Below, piece by piece: positions 5,894 through 16,205 of a stretch of 16,453 nucleotides of DNA. Position 1 is the first letter of the stretch. Every line of letters begins with the position of its first letter. Source of the DNA: Firmicutes bacterium UBA4049 (GTDB lineage: Bacteria > Bacillota > Desulfotomaculia > Desulfotomaculales > Nap2-2B); contig DFZT01000074.1 in the NCBI GenBank assembly GCA_002382755.1, forward strand, positions 10,817 to 27,269, in the 5' to 3' direction. The notes beneath the pieces are model-generated. The model was given only the letters and a program-made list of their open reading frames with translations, ran no database searches and was not told where the DNA came from. The translations under genes and the position numbers were made by a program.

Positions 5894-5923
5894 TTGACCG
5901 GTAGTCAAAGGAAGGTTTATACT
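5894..5923 (+). promoter_or_regulatory. Sigma-A type promoter of the magnesium operon
   Basis: TTGACC (5894-5899) and TATACT (5918-5923) are separated by 18 bases. A start near 5930 would begin the transcript just before the 5' strand of the M-box P1 stem at about 5935, which is what a riboswitch leader needs. Both boxes match the consensus at five of six (-35) and five of six (-10) positions. Confidence 0.75.
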
Positions 5924-5932
5924 TAAAAAAAG

Positions 5933-6097
5933 AATCCTTGTTAGGCGAGGCTTCTACATAGAACATACGCCACTGCCCGGAAATGTCGAGAGACACCAAT
6001 GGGATAACAGGTTTTGTCGGATTAAGGCTTTACCTAGTGTGGCTGGGGTGGTTTGCCCCTAGCTGTGTATGTGCCAAAACTCGAACGAGCGGGGAAG
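5933..6097 (+). promoter_or_regulatory. M-box (ykoK leader) Mg2+ riboswitch aptamer
   Basis: The conserved M-box core is readable by eye: TTAGGCGAGGCTTCTACATA, then CATACGCCACTGCCCGGAAA, then TGTCGAGAGAC, CCAATGGG and AACAG, in the family order and spacing. A closing P1 stem forms between TCCTTGTT (5935-5942) and AGCGGGGA (6088-6095), with G-U pairs. M-box aptamers fold when Mg2+ is plentiful and shut off downstream Mg2+ transporter genes. Here a terminator hairpin follows at 6130-6165 and the operon encodes an MgtE-domain protein and an Nramp-type transporter. Exact ends of the aptamer are approximate. Confidence 0.93.
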
Positions 6098-6129
6098 ATT
6101 AAATAAAAACAATATTTACTTTGTTTTCA

Positions 6130-6165
6130 AATAAACTTCCCTTTATTGCGGAAGTTTATTTTATA
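6130..6165 (+). terminator. Expression-platform terminator of the M-box leader
   Basis: AATAAACTTCC (6130-6140) pairs perfectly with GGAAGTTTATT (6150-6160) around a nine-base loop. The run continues as TTTATTTTATA. Lying between the M-box and the first gene, it is the expected off-state terminator at high Mg2+. It ends 25 bases before the mgtE-like ATG. Confidence 0.85.
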
Positions 6166-6190
6166 TACGATTGTTCCGGGGGAATTAAAG

Positions 6191-7480
6191 ATGGCACAGG
6201 TAGACGTCCTTGGCGAATTCTTTTTCAGCCGCGTGGTTGGAAAGCCGATTACCGACGCTGAGGGAAGAAAAGTAGGCCGTATAAAAGATATGGCAGTCCG
6301 GTGGGACAGCATCTGCCCGCGCGTAACAGGCATCAAGTACGCAAAGGGTGTTCAAAGCCATATAGATATAAACCAGATTGAAAGCTGGGATGAAAGCGGC
6401 CTCAAATTAAGGGGCAGCTTCAGCGCAGAAAAGCTTACTTTGCTCAAGGATGACGAAATATACGTCAGCAAGTGGCTGATGGATAAGCAGGTTATCGACT
6501 TAAAAGGATCCAAGCTCGTACGTGTAAACGATATCAAAATTTCCTGGGTTCGGCATGGGGAAACTGTAGATATAATTCTGGTGTCTTTTGACATCGGGTT
6601 ACGGGGATTGCTGCGCAGAGTGGGGATGGATTTTCTTGTTAAAGAGAATGAAAGCAGCTTCATCGGCTGGCAGTTTGTCAAACCCCTGGAAAGCAAGACC
6701 GCCAGCTTAAGGCTGAGTCAGGAACAGGATCAACTTAAAAGAATGCACCCTGCCGACATCGCAGATATTATAGAAGATCTTGACCATCACGAGCGCACCG
6801 ATTTCCTGGATAACCTGGATAACCAGACGGCGGCTGAGGCTCTGGCGAAAGTTGATCTTGACACCCAGGTAAAAATCATTGAACAGATGGACCCCGAGAG
6901 AGCTTCCGACATACTTGAAGAAATGCCTCCGGACGAAGCTGCCGATTTGCTTGGCGAATTGACAGAGCAAAGATCCAGCGAACTTTTAAACCTGATGGAA
7001 CCCGGCGAAGCTGAAGACGTGCGCGATCTGATGAGTTACCCGGAGGATACGGCCGGCTCCCTGATGACTACAGAATATATCGCTTTCCCAATCGGAATGA
7101 CCGTGGAAGAAACAATCAACCGTTTGCGGGAACTGGCGCCGTCCGCCGAAACGATTTATTACCTTTATGTCATTGGCGAAGAAGATGAGTCACTGCTTGG
7201 AGTACTCTCTTTAAGAGACCTGATTGTTGCGCAGCCGGATGCAGTTATAGGGGATCTGATGAACACAAGGATAATATCAGTCAACCATCATGACGACAAC
7301 AGAAAAGTTCTTGAAGTTGTAAGCAAATACAACCTTTTAGCGGTTCCGGTGGTAGATGATCAAAATATACTGCAGGGCATAATTACAGTGGATGATGTAA
7401 TCGAAACTCTGATGCCAAACCGCAGTGACTTAAAAACATTCTCGTGGTTCATGCTGCCGAGGAGACCTGGCCGGGGGTAA
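6191..7480 (+). CDS. Soluble PRC-barrel / MgtE_N / CBS-pair protein, putative Mg2+ sensor of the adjacent transporter
   Basis: A 429-residue protein with no membrane segment. Residues about 4-75 and 98-165 look like two PRC-barrel repeats (VVGKPITDAEGRKVGRIKDM in the first). Residues about 180-285 are the MgtE_N superhelical domain (HPADIADIIEDL, MDPERASDILEEMPPDEAADLLGEL). Residues about 284-410 are a CBS pair opening with the MgtE hinge YPEDTAGSLMTTEYIAF. In MgtE these cytosolic domains bind Mg2+ in acidic clefts and gate the channel, but the channel domain is wholly absent: the protein ends soon after the second CBS. ATG 6191 is chosen because GGGGG lies eight bases before it; the longer frame from 6146 would start inside the riboswitch terminator. 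Three bases separate it from the transporter gene. I infer a sensor or gating subunit for that transporter. Confidence 0.85.
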   Translation: MAQVDVLGEFFFSRVVGKPITDAEGRKVGRIKDMAVRWDSICPRVTGIKYAKGVQSHIDINQIESWDESGLKLRGSFSAEKLTLLKDDEIYVSKWLMDKQVIDLKGSKLVRVNDIKISWVRHGETVDIILVSFDIGLRGLLRRVGMDFLVKENESSFIGWQFVKPLESKTASLRLSQEQDQLKRMHPADIADIIEDLDHHERTDFLDNLDNQTAAEALAKVDLDTQVKIIEQMDPERASDILEEMPPDEAADLLGELTEQRSSELLNLMEPGEAEDVRDLMSYPEDTAGSLMTTEYIAFPIGMTVEETINRLRELAPSAETIYYLYVIGEEDESLLGVLSLRDLIVAQPDAVIGDLMNTRIISVNHHDDNRKVLEVVSKYNLLAVPVVDDQNILQGIITVDDVIETLMPNRSDLKTFSWFMLPRRPGRG

Positions 7481-7483
7481 GCG

Positions 7484-8737
7484 ATGAAACTGAAACGTAA
7501 CGGCTTTTTACGCAGTCTGTTTATATTTTTTGCGGTACTTGGGCCCGGAATTGTCACATCCAATGTAGACAACGATGCCGGCGGAATCACAACTTATTCC
7601 ATAGCCGGGGCTCATTTTGGGTACAGTCTGCTATGGATATTCGTTCCTATAACCATTGCCCTGATCGTTGTCCAGGAAATGTGCGTCCGGATGGGCGCAG
7701 TAACGGGCAAAGGGCTTGCCGACCTGATCAGGGAACGTTATGGCATCCGGATCATCTTATTTGTAATGATTGGCCTGATCTTTACCAATCTCGGCAACAC
7801 AGTCGCAGAATTTGCCGGAATAGCGGCCAGCACCGAGCTCTTCGGTCTGAGCAAATATATTTCCATACCCGTCGGGGCGCTTTTGGTCTGGGGTATTGTT
7901 CTTAAGGGATCATACAAGACCGTTGAGAGGGTTTTTCTGTTTGCTTCTGTCTTATTTTTAAGCTATGTTATATCGGGCGCATTGGCGAAACCGGACTGGG
8001 GCGCCGTACTCGAAGGAGTAGTGAAACCTACTTTTAGCCTGCAAAGCGGCTATCTTAGCTTGATAATAGGGCTGGTTGGAACAACTATTGCTCCTTGGAT
8101 GCAGTTTTACATCCAATCGACGGTTGTTGAAAAGGGTATTACCGTACAAAGATACGCATATTCGAGACTGGATGTTATAGTAGGAAGTTTTATGGCTGTT
8201 TTTGTCGCGATATTTATTGTAGTCGCTTGTTCAGCCACACTTTTTACGCACGGAGTCCAGGTTGAAACAGCCAAGGACGCGGCGCAGGCCCTGGCCCCTC
8301 TGGCAGGAAAATGGGCTTCCATACTTTTCGCGCTAGGTCTTTTAAACGCCTCGCTTTTTGCCGCTTCAATACTGCCGTTGTCAACTTCTTATTATGTTTG
8401 CGAAGCATTCGGGTTTGAAGCCGGAATTGATAAGTCCTGGTCCGAGGCGCCGGTATTTTATTCATTGTATACTATTTTTATAATCATCGGCGCCAGCATC
8501 ATCCTAATCCCGAAAATTTCACTTATCCTGGTAATGTTGTGGTCACAGATAATTAACGGAATTCTGCTGCCCTTTATTTTAATTTTCATGCTGCAGTTGG
8601 TCAATAATACCGATTTAATGGGCAAATATGTGAATTCCCGGGTTTACAACGTCATTGCCTGGGTTACAACAGCGGTTATGATCAGCCTTACAGTTCTTCT
8701 CGTGCTGACTTCTATTTTCCCGAATATGCTCTCTTAG
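7484..8737 (+). CDS. Nramp-related Mg2+ transporter (NRMT, SLC11-like)
   Basis: A 417-residue polytopic membrane protein with about 11 hydrophobic helices and the LeuT-type Nramp fold. Helix 1 reads GPGIVTSNVDNDAGG and then AGAHFGYSLLW, aligning residue for residue with the classical Nramp start. However, the metal motif DPGN is DAGG (Asp31 to Gly34). Helix 6 has GTTIAPWMQFY where Mn/Fe transporters have MPH: the metal-binding Met is Ala203 and the His is Trp205. Loss of the helix 1 Asn and helix 6 Met is what is described for Mg2+-transporting Nramp relatives. The M-box upstream and the MgtE-domain partner both point to Mg2+ import rather than Mn2+. A GGGGG ribosome binding site lies in the 3' end of the preceding gene. 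An automatic label of MntH would probably be wrong. Confidence 0.88.
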   Translation: MKLKRNGFLRSLFIFFAVLGPGIVTSNVDNDAGGITTYSIAGAHFGYSLLWIFVPITIALIVVQEMCVRMGAVTGKGLADLIRERYGIRIILFVMIGLIFTNLGNTVAEFAGIAASTELFGLSKYISIPVGALLVWGIVLKGSYKTVERVFLFASVLFLSYVISGALAKPDWGAVLEGVVKPTFSLQSGYLSLIIGLVGTTIAPWMQFYIQSTVVEKGITVQRYAYSRLDVIVGSFMAVFVAIFIVVACSATLFTHGVQVETAKDAAQALAPLAGKWASILFALGLLNASLFAASILPLSTSYYVCEAFGFEAGIDKSWSEAPVFYSLYTIFIIIGASIILIPKISLILVMLWSQIINGILLPFILIFMLQLVNNTDLMGKYVNSRVYNVIAWVTTAVMISLTVLLVLTSIFPNMLS

Positions 8738-12998: not shown

Positions 12999-15900
12999 TC
13001 AATTGCTGATGAAATCATAATTACTGAGTAAAAGCCCTAAATCCCCAATGTTAACTATATCGTCACCGTTCAAGTCGCAATTTTGTTTATAGCCTATTTG
13101 GCCTTCTGCAGTATTATAAGAATTGGCAAACTGCACAAGGTCTAAAAGGCTTATTCTGCCATCGCCGTTTATATCTCCCGCTCTTAAGTAAACATTTCCA
13201 ATCTTTGCAGTACTGCCATCATACACATTGATTCCGGTTTTTCTTTTTGCAAGATAATTTTCCGACTTAAATCTGAGGTTATATTGGGCAGGAGGCAAAC
13301 CAGTCATGACAAACAAGTCGCTGCTTTGCGCGCTTAATGTTGAGACTAAACTACCCTGCGCGTTATATGCTTCTATACTTATAGCTTTATATTTTCCTTC
13401 CGCCAGACCATCCAGGTAAACCGTACCTGTAATAATCCCGCCCGTTCCAGGTTCTGGTCCTGTAACAAAGTTAATCTTAAGCCCTTCGACAAAATTATTT
13501 CCGGCAGCATCTTTAACCGCAAAAGCAGGGATATTCAATATATAGCTGCAGCCATAATCCAGTATATTTACAGGTTCTAAGACCAGAGTCCTGTTATCCA
13601 GGCTCTTAATAAGTTCTATTTCACTATTCTGCGAATCTCTCAAAGAGATACTATTGTATGAGTTCCCTTCCTGTATGTTTTCACCGAAAGTAATAATAAA
13701 ACTAATATCAACAGACACATCAACAGTGCCAACCTGAGGATCATTTTCGACTATCTCAGGACGTGTTAAATCAAGTAAAATAGTTTCCTGGCCAGCAGCA
13801 ATATTGCCGCTTAAATCTTTAACCTTAATAAAAACTGTCTGAATACCTTCCTTATTGATAAGTTCCCATTCTTTTACAGCATTATATGATTCCCATTTTG
13901 TCCAGTTAACACTGTCGTTGGAAAAACTAACAAGGAGTTTAGACTGTTCATCTTTTTCATCGGCAGCTTGAATGGAGAGGGTTACAGCTGTATCATTTGT
14001 CGCCTCAGCGCCATCGTTTATTGTGAAGACGCTTATTATTGGGGGAGTAACATCCAGTTGCTGCAATGTGAAATCAAGAACAGAACCTTCAGCCCAGCCG
14101 ACGGCGTTGTGGGCCATAGCTTTAAACTCGTAGGTCTGTCCTGAACCTAAGCCGGTCAGGCTGTAGTTGAACGCTTCTGCGCCGAAAGAGCCGTTCTGCA
14201 GGCCGGCATCCGTCCAGTTAGCCGCACCCTTTACCCTGTACTGGAATTTCCTCTGGTCGCAGTTCTGACCGCCTGTGTTCGTGATGCTGCCGTTTAATGT
14301 CGCCGAGTTGAAAGTAATATTTGTTGCTGCGCTGGTCTGTACTGTTGGCAGGTTGACTTTAGGAAAAGCGTTCAGAGCATCAGCTCTGCCATAGCCATAC
14401 ACATAATCATACCCGGAAGCTCCTAAATCAATTGATAAACTGGTTAAGATATTACGTATTTCACTTGAAGATTTGTCAGGATACTGCTCCATAATTAAGG
14501 CTGCAATTGCGGCTATATGTGGGGCTGCAGCGCTTGTCCCATAAAAAGGATTAGAAAAACCGCCCGCGCCGGTTATCCTTATTCCGGCCATTCCGCATAG
14601 GTCGGGTTTTTTTCTGGTTTCACTGGCAGGATAGCTAATTGTAACCGGGCCTTGAGAGGAATATACTGCAATCTGGTTTTGGTCCGGAACATCTATTGCC
14701 CCTACAGAAATGACATCCGGAATAGCGGTTTGGCCGAAAATGGAATCTCGTGAGGTAAGGCTATCCTGGTAAACAAGTGTTCCGTTCCCAGGATAAATAT
14801 ATATCTCAAGTGTTTTCGAGGCTGCTAAACCCCGGTAGTTGCTTACTAAAAAAACCCCTTCTATTGTAGAATCGCCGTTATTAACGCCTCCTATTACTTC
14901 CAGTGGATCATCATTGCCGTTCTGGGTGTTTTCGCTCCAGGCAATTATCTCTTGAGATGCTAAATCCCCAAGATAAAGATCATAATCGTTGCCTGAAGAG
15001 CCGAACTTATCATTCCACTCCAAAACAATTATAATATTGCCCCCAGGAGGTATATCTACATACAATGGTTTATTATTGCAATTATAACCGTCGTTATAGT
15101 AAACACCCTGATAATGTCTAAGCGCACTATTACCAGCCGAAGAAATATAAGTTATATTGTTATTTCTAATAACTGACGCCATATGACTGGCAACGACCCC
15201 ATCCTCAAAGAAAGGTTCAGCAATCCAACTTATATCATCACAGATAATTTCACAGCCATTGCTTACAAGTTCATCAACCGCATTATTGAATCCAACAACA
15301 TTATCACTACAATCATGAAAGTACAATTCTGCCCCCGGGGCAAGATCATGGACTATTTCTAACATAGCTGTCCCTTCATCGCCGCCTTGCATATTGCTTA
15401 AAACATTCAGATTCGAAGGAAGATCTCCTTTATCTCTGGCGCTGGTCCAGTGGTCTACCCCGTCAGATATAATTCCAACTTTTACACCGCTTCCGTTTTT
15501 TCCATATTGTGCGCGTACCTGATCAGCCCTGTGGATTGCATCACCTTCACTGGTTACGGAACCTGTATTCAAGTAGGGGGGTAAAACGGTTCTTATAAAA
15601 CTCACTGCATCAAGTCCAGTCAAGATCTTCAGTTTGGTTACACTTACCCAGGCAACAGCAAGATGGTTTTGTTCATCCCTGTCTGTAACCTCCTGTACAT
15701 ACGGTTCTATTATGCTTGTTGCAGCATTAGAAGCCAAATGTATATATACATACACCTGTTCATCAGTTTGCTTGATACCTTCCCTGACGGAAGTGTAGTA
15801 ACGGAATTGTTTTAACGACTGCATTTTCTTGATCAGGTCTTCTCTTGACTGAATGCCAGTAAGAACATCTGCGCTTGTTAACTCAAGCAAATCTGTACTG

Positions 15901-16085
15901 AGCTTTTGTTGCTGCAGGCTAAGGTTCGCCTTTTGACTGCTCATTATTCCCAGTTTATTTTTGACACCTTCTATCGAGGTATTAGCCTGTATTCCTTTAG
16001 TGATTTGTTGTGCTGCACAACTGCCTGCAGTAATAAAAAAAATAAAAATAATGGCCGGCAAAAAGAATAGTTTATTTTTTAACAA
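12999..16085 (-). CDS. Secreted S8/S53-like serine protease with FN3, Ig-like, Big_5, CarboxypepD_reg-like and dockerin domains
   Basis: From the TTG at 16085 (AAGGGG eight bases upstream) the protein has 1028 residues and opens with an ideal signal peptide ending SCAAQQ. The open frame continues to a GTG at 16163, but that start lacks a ribosome binding site. A propeptide-like region (about 30-180) precedes the peptidase: Asp208 in VGIISDGVD, Glu237 in GGDEGTAMLEIVHD where subtilases have His-Gly-Thr, oxyanion Asn319 in SSAGN, and nucleophile Ser518 in YGTSAAAPH. A beta-rich insert (about 335-440) splits the domain. Next come a fibronectin III module (580-674), an Ig-like module (679-774), a Big_5-like module (775-876), a carboxypeptidase-regulatory-like module (880-968) and a type I dockerin (970-1026) with GDINGDGRISLLD and CDLNGDDIVNIGD calcium loops. 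It is an extracellular enzyme, perhaps docked to a cohesin. Substrate unknown. Confidence 0.88.
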   Translation of the reverse strand: MLKNKLFFLPAIIFIFFITAGSCAAQQITKGIQANTSIEGVKNKLGIMSSQKANLSLQQQKLSTDLLELTSADVLTGIQSREDLIKKMQSLKQFRYYTSVREGIKQTDEQVYVYIHLASNAATSIIEPYVQEVTDRDEQNHLAVAWVSVTKLKILTGLDAVSFIRTVLPPYLNTGSVTSEGDAIHRADQVRAQYGKNGSGVKVGIISDGVDHWTSARDKGDLPSNLNVLSNMQGGDEGTAMLEIVHDLAPGAELYFHDCSDNVVGFNNAVDELVSNGCEIICDDISWIAEPFFEDGVVASHMASVIRNNNITYISSAGNSALRHYQGVYYNDGYNCNNKPLYVDIPPGGNIIIVLEWNDKFGSSGNDYDLYLGDLASQEIIAWSENTQNGNDDPLEVIGGVNNGDSTIEGVFLVSNYRGLAASKTLEIYIYPGNGTLVYQDSLTSRDSIFGQTAIPDVISVGAIDVPDQNQIAVYSSQGPVTISYPASETRKKPDLCGMAGIRITGAGGFSNPFYGTSAAAPHIAAIAALIMEQYPDKSSSEIRNILTSLSIDLGASGYDYVYGYGRADALNAFPKVNLPTVQTSAATNITFNSATLNGSITNTGGQNCDQRKFQYRVKGAANWTDAGLQNGSFGAEAFNYSLTGLGSGQTYEFKAMAHNAVGWAEGSVLDFTLQQLDVTPPIISVFTINDGAEATNDTAVTLSIQAADEKDEQSKLLVSFSNDSVNWTKWESYNAVKEWELINKEGIQTVFIKVKDLSGNIAAGQETILLDLTRPEIVENDPQVGTVDVSVDISFIITFGENIQEGNSYNSISLRDSQNSEIELIKSLDNRTLVLEPVNILDYGCSYILNIPAFAVKDAAGNNFVEGLKINFVTGPEPGTGGIITGTVYLDGLAEGKYKAISIEAYNAQGSLVSTLSAQSSDLFVMTGLPPAQYNLRFKSENYLAKRKTGINVYDGSTAKIGNVYLRAGDINGDGRISLLDLVQFANSYNTAEGQIGYKQNCDLNGDDIVNIGDLGLLLSNYDFISN

Positions 16086-16205
16086 ACCGTTAACCCCTTG
16101 CTTAATAATTGCTGCTGAAAAAAATGAATTCTTTAATCTCATCTTTAGCAACAGAATAGTCACTTCTCATTCTTCGACATAAAGGTATGATACCCTTCAC
16201 AAATA

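Follow-up and report, generated by a model that had tools for sequence, protein, structure and literature searches.

Most genes for transporters of the NrmT type (NRMTs, which have the Nramp fold) adjoin a gene for the cytoplasmic domain of the channel MgtE, often under the control of an M-box, and the main text of Shin et al. 2014 proposes feedback regulation or a chaperone role for this MgtE-fragment partner (PMC4072509). The pairing has been in print since then, and gating is already published as a proposal for the same gene pair. We analysed a window of 16,453 nucleotides (the whole stretch of DNA, from contig DFZT01000074.1 of Firmicutes bacterium UBA4049) in which a candidate promoter, an M-box, hairpins, a gene for a soluble MgtE relative (the sensor gene) and an NRMT gene follow one another in one orientation (Table 1). 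The locus is an ordinary, well-formed example of this known operon type, and resembles the operons of Shin et al. in its gene pair, its M-box control and the cytosolic feedback proposed for it; whereas the MgtE fragment is divided between two genes in C. acetobutylicum, it lies in one gene in the window, the usual state according to that text (PMC4072509). What is new here is a survey of the pairing, the record of which metal sites are retained and which are missing, a tandem PRC module and pore-less membrane forms. The terms PRC, CBS and neighbor are absent from the main text of PMC4072509, as are operon, CBS, PRC and genomic from the text of PMC8806188, which describes the NRMT of Eggerthella lenta (EleNRMT; PDB 7qia). 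Among the papers listed by a literature search, with subscription papers outside its reach, there was no later work on the function of the sensor partner, and the term PRC-barrel was absent from the listed papers checked for it.

Starting from the genes, their domains, the riboswitch match, the conserved pairing and the conserved Mg2+ ligands, all of which are observed directly, we propose that the window probably holds an M-box-controlled Mg2+-uptake operon with two layers of feedback, one exerted by the riboswitch and one by the sensor acting on the NRMT. At high cytosolic Mg2+, the riboswitch would favour the terminator and halt transcription of both genes. The first gene would supply a cytosolic Mg2+ sensor made from the regulatory half of MgtE and bearing a tandem PRC module, and the second an Nramp-fold NRMT with a Mg2+-type site. 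The Mg2+-loaded sensor, with its N domain closed, would most likely bind the cytosolic face of the NRMT and slow or lock transport, the Mg2+-free sensor would let the NRMT run, and the PRC repeats would be the likeliest docking part. Gating of the NRMT by the sensor is the mechanism put forward in an earlier note on this DNA and is the best one available; it is what we infer. EleNRMT is described as moving Mg2+ with no coupling to protons (PMC8806188), and a carrier of this kind should need a brake once the cell is replete with Mg2+.

The earlier note had read the first gene as PRC-like repeats, an MgtE_N domain and a CBS pair without a channel domain, and profile searches agree. Pfam matches MgtE_N with 99.9 bits (residues 185-286) and CBS with 64.6 bits over two stretches, and finds no MgtE channel domain; the TIGR00400 mgtE profile scores 198.4, below its cut-off of 232.75, and aligns over positions 21-252 of 450 only. 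Residues 1-82 and 84-172 are homologous repeats (hhalign probability 94.5%, E 7.5e-8; 0.06-3.8% for three control pairings), and the AlphaFold2 model of the first 182 residues is beta-rich, with a predicted local distance difference test (pLDDT) of 85.5 and a predicted template-modelling score (pTM) of 0.81. Assignment of these repeats to the PRC-barrel is marginal: the Pfam match (PF05239) reaches 21.6 bits against a cut-off of 21.2 and covers residues 8-34, and matches among sensor relatives reach up to 35 bits. The region is conserved in alignments of 14 and of 42 sensors. The same note had called the MgtE gating half complete, which was wrong, because the plug helix that ends the cytosolic part of MgtE is absent.

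The metal sites were mapped onto Thermus thermophilus MgtE (TtMgtE; 2yvx/2yvy) with the site list in the text of PMC5882242, and conservation was counted over 99 unique sensor-NRMT pairs (44 clusters at 70%; an earlier set of 118 pairs included loci fetched twice). MgtE has six Mg2+ sites in its cytosolic part, and for three of them the ligands are nearly invariant in the sensors, namely Mg4 (D91 and D247, 99/99), Mg6 (D95, 96/99) and Mg7 (D or E at the E59 position, 96/99). The plug-helix ligands of Mg2 and Mg3 (E258, D259) are absent because the sensor ends shortly after the second CBS domain. By sequence, the sensor retains the sites that hold N domain and CBS pair together, without those reaching towards the pore. 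The N-CBS part of an AlphaFold2 model superposes on the Mg2+-bound cytosolic structure of MgtE (2yvy) with a template-modelling (TM) score of 0.85 and a root-mean-square deviation of 2.0. The sensor shares with TtMgtE the N domain, the CBS pair and the Mg4, Mg6 and Mg7 ligands, and differs from it in lacking the plug helix and the membrane domain (with pore residue D432), in its N-terminal tandem PRC repeats and in an altered Mg5. The 20 genuine MgtEs that were taken from the same genome sample for comparison all have D91, D95, D247, D250 and an acidic plug.

The second claim of the earlier note, an Nramp-fold transporter with a Mg2+-type site three bases downstream, was also borne out. The transporter ATG at 7484 lies three bases past the sensor stop and shares its frame with the sensor gene; the first listed open reading frame begins at TTG 6146, and ATG 6191 is preferred as the sensor start because a purine-rich stretch precedes it and the starts of relatives agree. 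Pfam matches Nramp with 334.6 bits, and the best solved relative is EleNRMT (E 1.8e-118, 399 bits), followed by D. radiodurans MntH (1.5e-33, 120 bits). Residues D31, G34, T200, A203 and W205 (plus E109 and Q355) fit the NRMT pattern in the text on EleNRMT (PMC8806188), the D/G/T/A/W site being common to both: Asp is kept, Asn has become Gly, Met has become Ala (Thr in many relatives), Ala has become Thr and His has become Trp. Position 203 is T in 70, A in 29 and M in none of the 99 pairs. The site residues and the M-box together point to Mg2+ as the probable substrate of the NRMT in the window. Residue 203 (A or T) was tried as a marker of Mg2+ control and set aside, as M-boxes accompany both: among the paired loci within L005-L084, 75 in number, they occur at 8/18 with A and 24/57 with T. 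A difference from the window's transporter is that, according to the text of PMC8806188, the structures and assays of EleNRMT involved no partner protein.

The M-box, which the earlier note had missed, belongs to its family by a match to RF00380 that exceeds the gathering score, and it lies upstream of Mg2+-type genes. The GGGAAG strand of the candidate antiterminator (6092-6097) overlaps the 3' strand of the closing stem of the aptamer. Folding gives -17.0 kcal/mol for 6096-6178 (z -4.2) and -14.5 kcal/mol for 6120-6172 (z -6.1); a simple terminator scan missed the terminator-like hairpin. From this layout, the M-box would be expected to act in a Mg2+-dependent manner at this locus. Terminator conservation across 31 M-box leaders was not used, as loose rules find some hairpin in 30/31 and in the window pick the antiterminator-like one. 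An M-box precedes 33 of 80 related loci. Two Pelosinus loci (L024:3305-3794 and L033:3310-3788) have two tandem M-box riboswitches upstream of the sensor gene, and at L089:5261-6932 an M-box lies upstream of a sensor gene without an adjoining NRMT.

Table 1. Features of the M-box, sensor and NRMT locus in the window, with the membrane-bound relatives
Feature	Position	Strand	Remarks
Candidate sigma-70-type promoter, TTGACC-18-TATACT	5894-5923	+	Weak: 6 sites in region, 4.5 expected by chance
M-box Mg2+ riboswitch aptamer, RF00380	5930-6100	+	132.7 bits (gathering score 44), E 3.4e-30, full length
Candidate antiterminator	6092-6141	+	GGGAAG 6092-6097 would pair with CUUCCC 6136-6141; from a loose folding script and the aptamer structure line
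Terminator-like hairpin, then U-rich tail	6129-6161	+	Mutually exclusive with the candidate antiterminator
Sensor gene, PRC-PRC-MgtE_N-CBS-CBS	6191-7480	+	429 residues; ATG 6191, stop 7478-7480; no channel, no plug helix
PRC-like repeat 1	6200-6409	+	Residues 4-73
PRC-like repeat 2	6434-6688	+	Residues 82-166
MgtE_N domain	6743-7048	+	Residues 185-286; E216, D248, D252 = TtMgtE E59, D91, D95
CBS pair	7061-7411	+	About residues 291-407; D402 = TtMgtE D247
NRMT-type Nramp transporter gene	7484-8737	+	417 residues; ATG 7484; D31, G34, E109, T200, A203, W205, Q355
Pore-less Chloroflexota membrane forms	L170, L171, L172, L186-L193		11 proteins

The earlier note had named the lack of a conserved neighbourhood as grounds for refuting the gating proposal. 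In a survey across phyla, the pairing held strongly in Bacillota and Nitrospirota and more loosely in Chloroflexota. Among the 80 related loci from the genome collection, which span several phyla, an NRMT adjoins the sensor in 75, on the same strand in 74 (L051 is a convergent pair); five loci have none within reach (L007, L042, L049, L054 and L078, with L049 at a contig end). An NRMT is present somewhere in all 45 genomes searched, which are 45 of the 80 behind these loci and include the five unpaired ones. At L007:5367-6032, a gene for a TerC-family membrane protein is convergent to the sensor, and an NRMT lies elsewhere in the same genome. In the Bacillota sample (398 genomes), a sensor lies directly upstream at 35/35 NRMT loci in 34 genomes, split in two in G114; the NRMT cut of at least 379 bits was placed in the gap between 379 and 212 after the table had been seen, dropping Nramp matches of about 212 bits and below and a 141-bit fragment in G141. 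In one genus of this sample, 27 of 29 sensor loci have an NRMT. Among 148 Nitrospirota genomes, all 48 with an NRMT also have a sensor, adjacent at 47 of 48 loci and on a different contig in the exception; six further genomes have a sensor match only. The commonest spacing is a 4-base overlap (45/99 unique pairs, with starts placed by script).

For Chloroflexota (251 genomes; NRMT cut of at least 300 bits, lower Nramp matches dropped), the search tables gave 97 NRMT loci in 82 genomes, 57 of them adjacent to a sensor, with a PRC-sensor match in 69/82 NRMT genomes and none in 13; 14 genomes had a sensor only. Regions read from those 13 genomes revealed a soluble or membrane-bound sensor in 12, five of which adjoin an NRMT (G526, G548, G559, G567 and G653, that of G526 being the CBS end only, at a contig edge), and the sole region read from G540 held a canonical MgtE. 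With a divergent sensor beside one NRMT at L160 (G440), the corrected counts are 81/82 genomes with both genes and 63/97 adjacent loci. The sensors of G496, G626 and G711, counted as NRMT-less, adjoin an NRMT-like gene of 35-36% identity. No shared alternative partner was found by eye in 11 regions around unlinked NRMTs, save for common neighbours in the related L173 and L175-L177. At L174:4847-9031, a tandem pair of NRMT-like genes is followed by a divergent sensor.

In some Chloroflexota, the PRC-MgtE_N-CBS part is fused to a MgtE-type membrane domain, in frames of 650 to 751 residues. All 11 rows with the membrane-form match pattern (about 170 to 403) were read; L193 is cut by its contig, with its PRC part outside the visible sequence. 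For the first three, comparison with 20 genuine MgtEs gives a match to the MgtE channel profile (99.65%, E 3.5e-25), and Pfam scores two of them at 35-40 bits. In all 11, the pore aspartate D432 has given way to A (10 proteins) or V (one), and the GGN motif has S, A or G in place of N329; the plug acids are retained. Two canonical Chloroflexota MgtEs and the 20 control MgtEs keep D and N, and mutation of Mg1 (D432) is described in the text of PMC5882242 as abolishing MgtE conduction. An NRMT match occurs in 11/11 of these genomes (partial in G707, 249 bits), compared with 91/251 in the whole Chloroflexota sample, and the 11 genomes are related and thus not independent cases. Sensors of Coriobacteriia (Collinsella, Enorma), of about 614 residues, likewise have a C-terminal membrane domain, which Pfam did not recognise in the five proteins scanned; P0242, P0256, P0275, P0298 and P0357 are sensors of this kind. 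This domain matches MgtE weakly (91%, E 1.1e-6), lacks the GGN motif and, in a column of uncertain placement, has V, L or T at D432 in 13/13 proteins, a subset of those found. EleNRMT comes from the same class as these sensors, Coriobacteriia, and a single metagenomic protein, P0124, provides the link between coriobacterial sensor and NRMT. Two proteins in which a coriobacterial sensor is followed by a seemingly intact MgtE channel (P0276, P0278) are probably assembly chimeras, and both were left out of the counts. Taken together, these forms suggest that an MgtE channel may have become a regulatory subunit of a transporter with the Nramp fold. In a possible, still tentative scenario, PRC-bearing MgtEs would have lost their pore (D432, GGN) but not their sensor, plug and membrane parts, others would have shed the membrane domain altogether, both forms would serve the NRMT, and gating would have moved between unrelated folds. 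The pore-less relatives and the survey make the feedback proposal easier to test.

Several observations weigh against the proposed mechanism. The Mg5 ligand D226 is kept in only 7/99 unique pairs, with D or E at the D250 position in 89/99, and the ATP-stacking F227 is L in 98/99; with D226 mostly lost and F227 replaced, sensing must differ from that in MgtE. In the 20 control MgtEs, D226 occurs in 15, F227 in 12 and an acidic residue at E59 in 6. According to the texts on these transporters, NRMT is active in liposomes and in B. subtilis with no sensor present (PMC4072509, PMC8806188), and transport therefore does not depend on the sensor. Growth was rescued by the C. acetobutylicum transporters in the absence of the partner, and co-expression brought no gain in rescue with the A. 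capsulatum pair, which did not act like a Mg2+ system and whose transporter appears to be a Mn2+ carrier (PMC4072509); these rescue data neither support nor refute gating, because an inhibitory sensor is not expected to improve rescue. Linkage is also imperfect: 34/97 Chloroflexota NRMT loci have no visible adjacent sensor, and four sensors of the Bacillota sample, one of them at a contig end, have no adjoining NRMT. A soluble PRC sensor, apart from the NRMT, is present in 9/9 membrane-form genomes read and, by the search table, in the other two (G683 and G707); the membrane form is thus not linked exclusively to the NRMT and is an addition, not a replacement. AlphaFold2 modelling of an artificial read-through chain yielded no usable interface evidence: the model (pLDDT 87.9, pTM 0.71) is of low confidence at the joint between its halves (410-435) and came without inter-domain error values, and no interface is claimed; its transporter half matches EleNRMT with a TM score of 0.91. 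Its alignment had 96 rows, with 15 in-frame or fused pairs besides the query. Of 17 in-frame loci, 14 were taken into the analysis and L056, L058 and L107 were set aside. Natural sensor-transporter fusions found with the read-through query (P0123, P0187, P0168, P0137 and P0124) were not used as contact evidence, because each of them except P0168, which has 12 members, is a lone metagenomic protein, and several contain deleted or frameshifted segments.

The altered nucleotide site bears on a different reading, in which the sensor reports another signal (Mn2+ or a nucleotide in the CBS cleft) and Mg2+ only secondarily. The ATP contacts of MgtE include Y170, R187 and F227 in the text of PMC5529423, and the sensors keep the equivalents of Y170 in 98/99 and of R187 in 95/99 unique pairs; with F227 changed to L, the pocket would therefore be changed, not lost. 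The link of the A. capsulatum pair to Mn2+ in PMC4072509 fits the same reading. Against it, the M-box at 33/80 loci and at the NRMT-less sensor of L089 ties expression to Mg2+, and Mg4 is invariant, which makes another primary signal rather unlikely. In a further reading, the sensor would not gate the transporter but would collect Mg2+ at its exit, as a buffer or delivery protein. Retention of the Mg2+ ligands without the plug helix, the gating transmitter of MgtE, speaks for it, as does the chaperone role raised by Shin et al. (PMC4072509); however, that text puts cytosolic Mg2+ at about 0.5-2 mM, a level at which there is little need for delivery. The sites that remain are those that clamp the domains together, some relatives are anchored in the membrane, and we consider the reading very unlikely. 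That the sensor is an NRMT assembly or localisation factor acting through its PRC repeats, with inherited and incidental metal sites, would fit the conserved PRC region in the 14 and 42 aligned sensors and the genomes that retain both genes apart, but is highly improbable since near-invariant Mg2+ ligands would not persist across phyla if incidental. If, as we prefer, the linked sensor stops the NRMT, a single Mg2+ sensor has come to control transporters of two unrelated folds, and a component of the working system is missing from the solved EleNRMT structures.

The nearest relatives of the sensor in the window (92-93% identity) come from metagenome-assembled Bacillota, one named Desulfotomaculum sp. 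The genome that the window belongs to (1.8 Mb, 101 contigs) has one sensor, one NRMT and one CorA, and no MgtE channel was found in it, at 92.9% completeness, which may hide more copies. At L090:6022-9408 (G003), an NRMT-less sensor lies about 190 bases upstream of a relative of the KimA potassium transporter; as an alternative partner, this permease was taken as chance, tblastn over 129 loci having matched L090 alone. Elsewhere in the window, positions 12999-16163 on the minus strand encode a large protein of the subtilase type, which has a bacterial Ig-like domain and, at its C-terminus, a match to dockerin type I.

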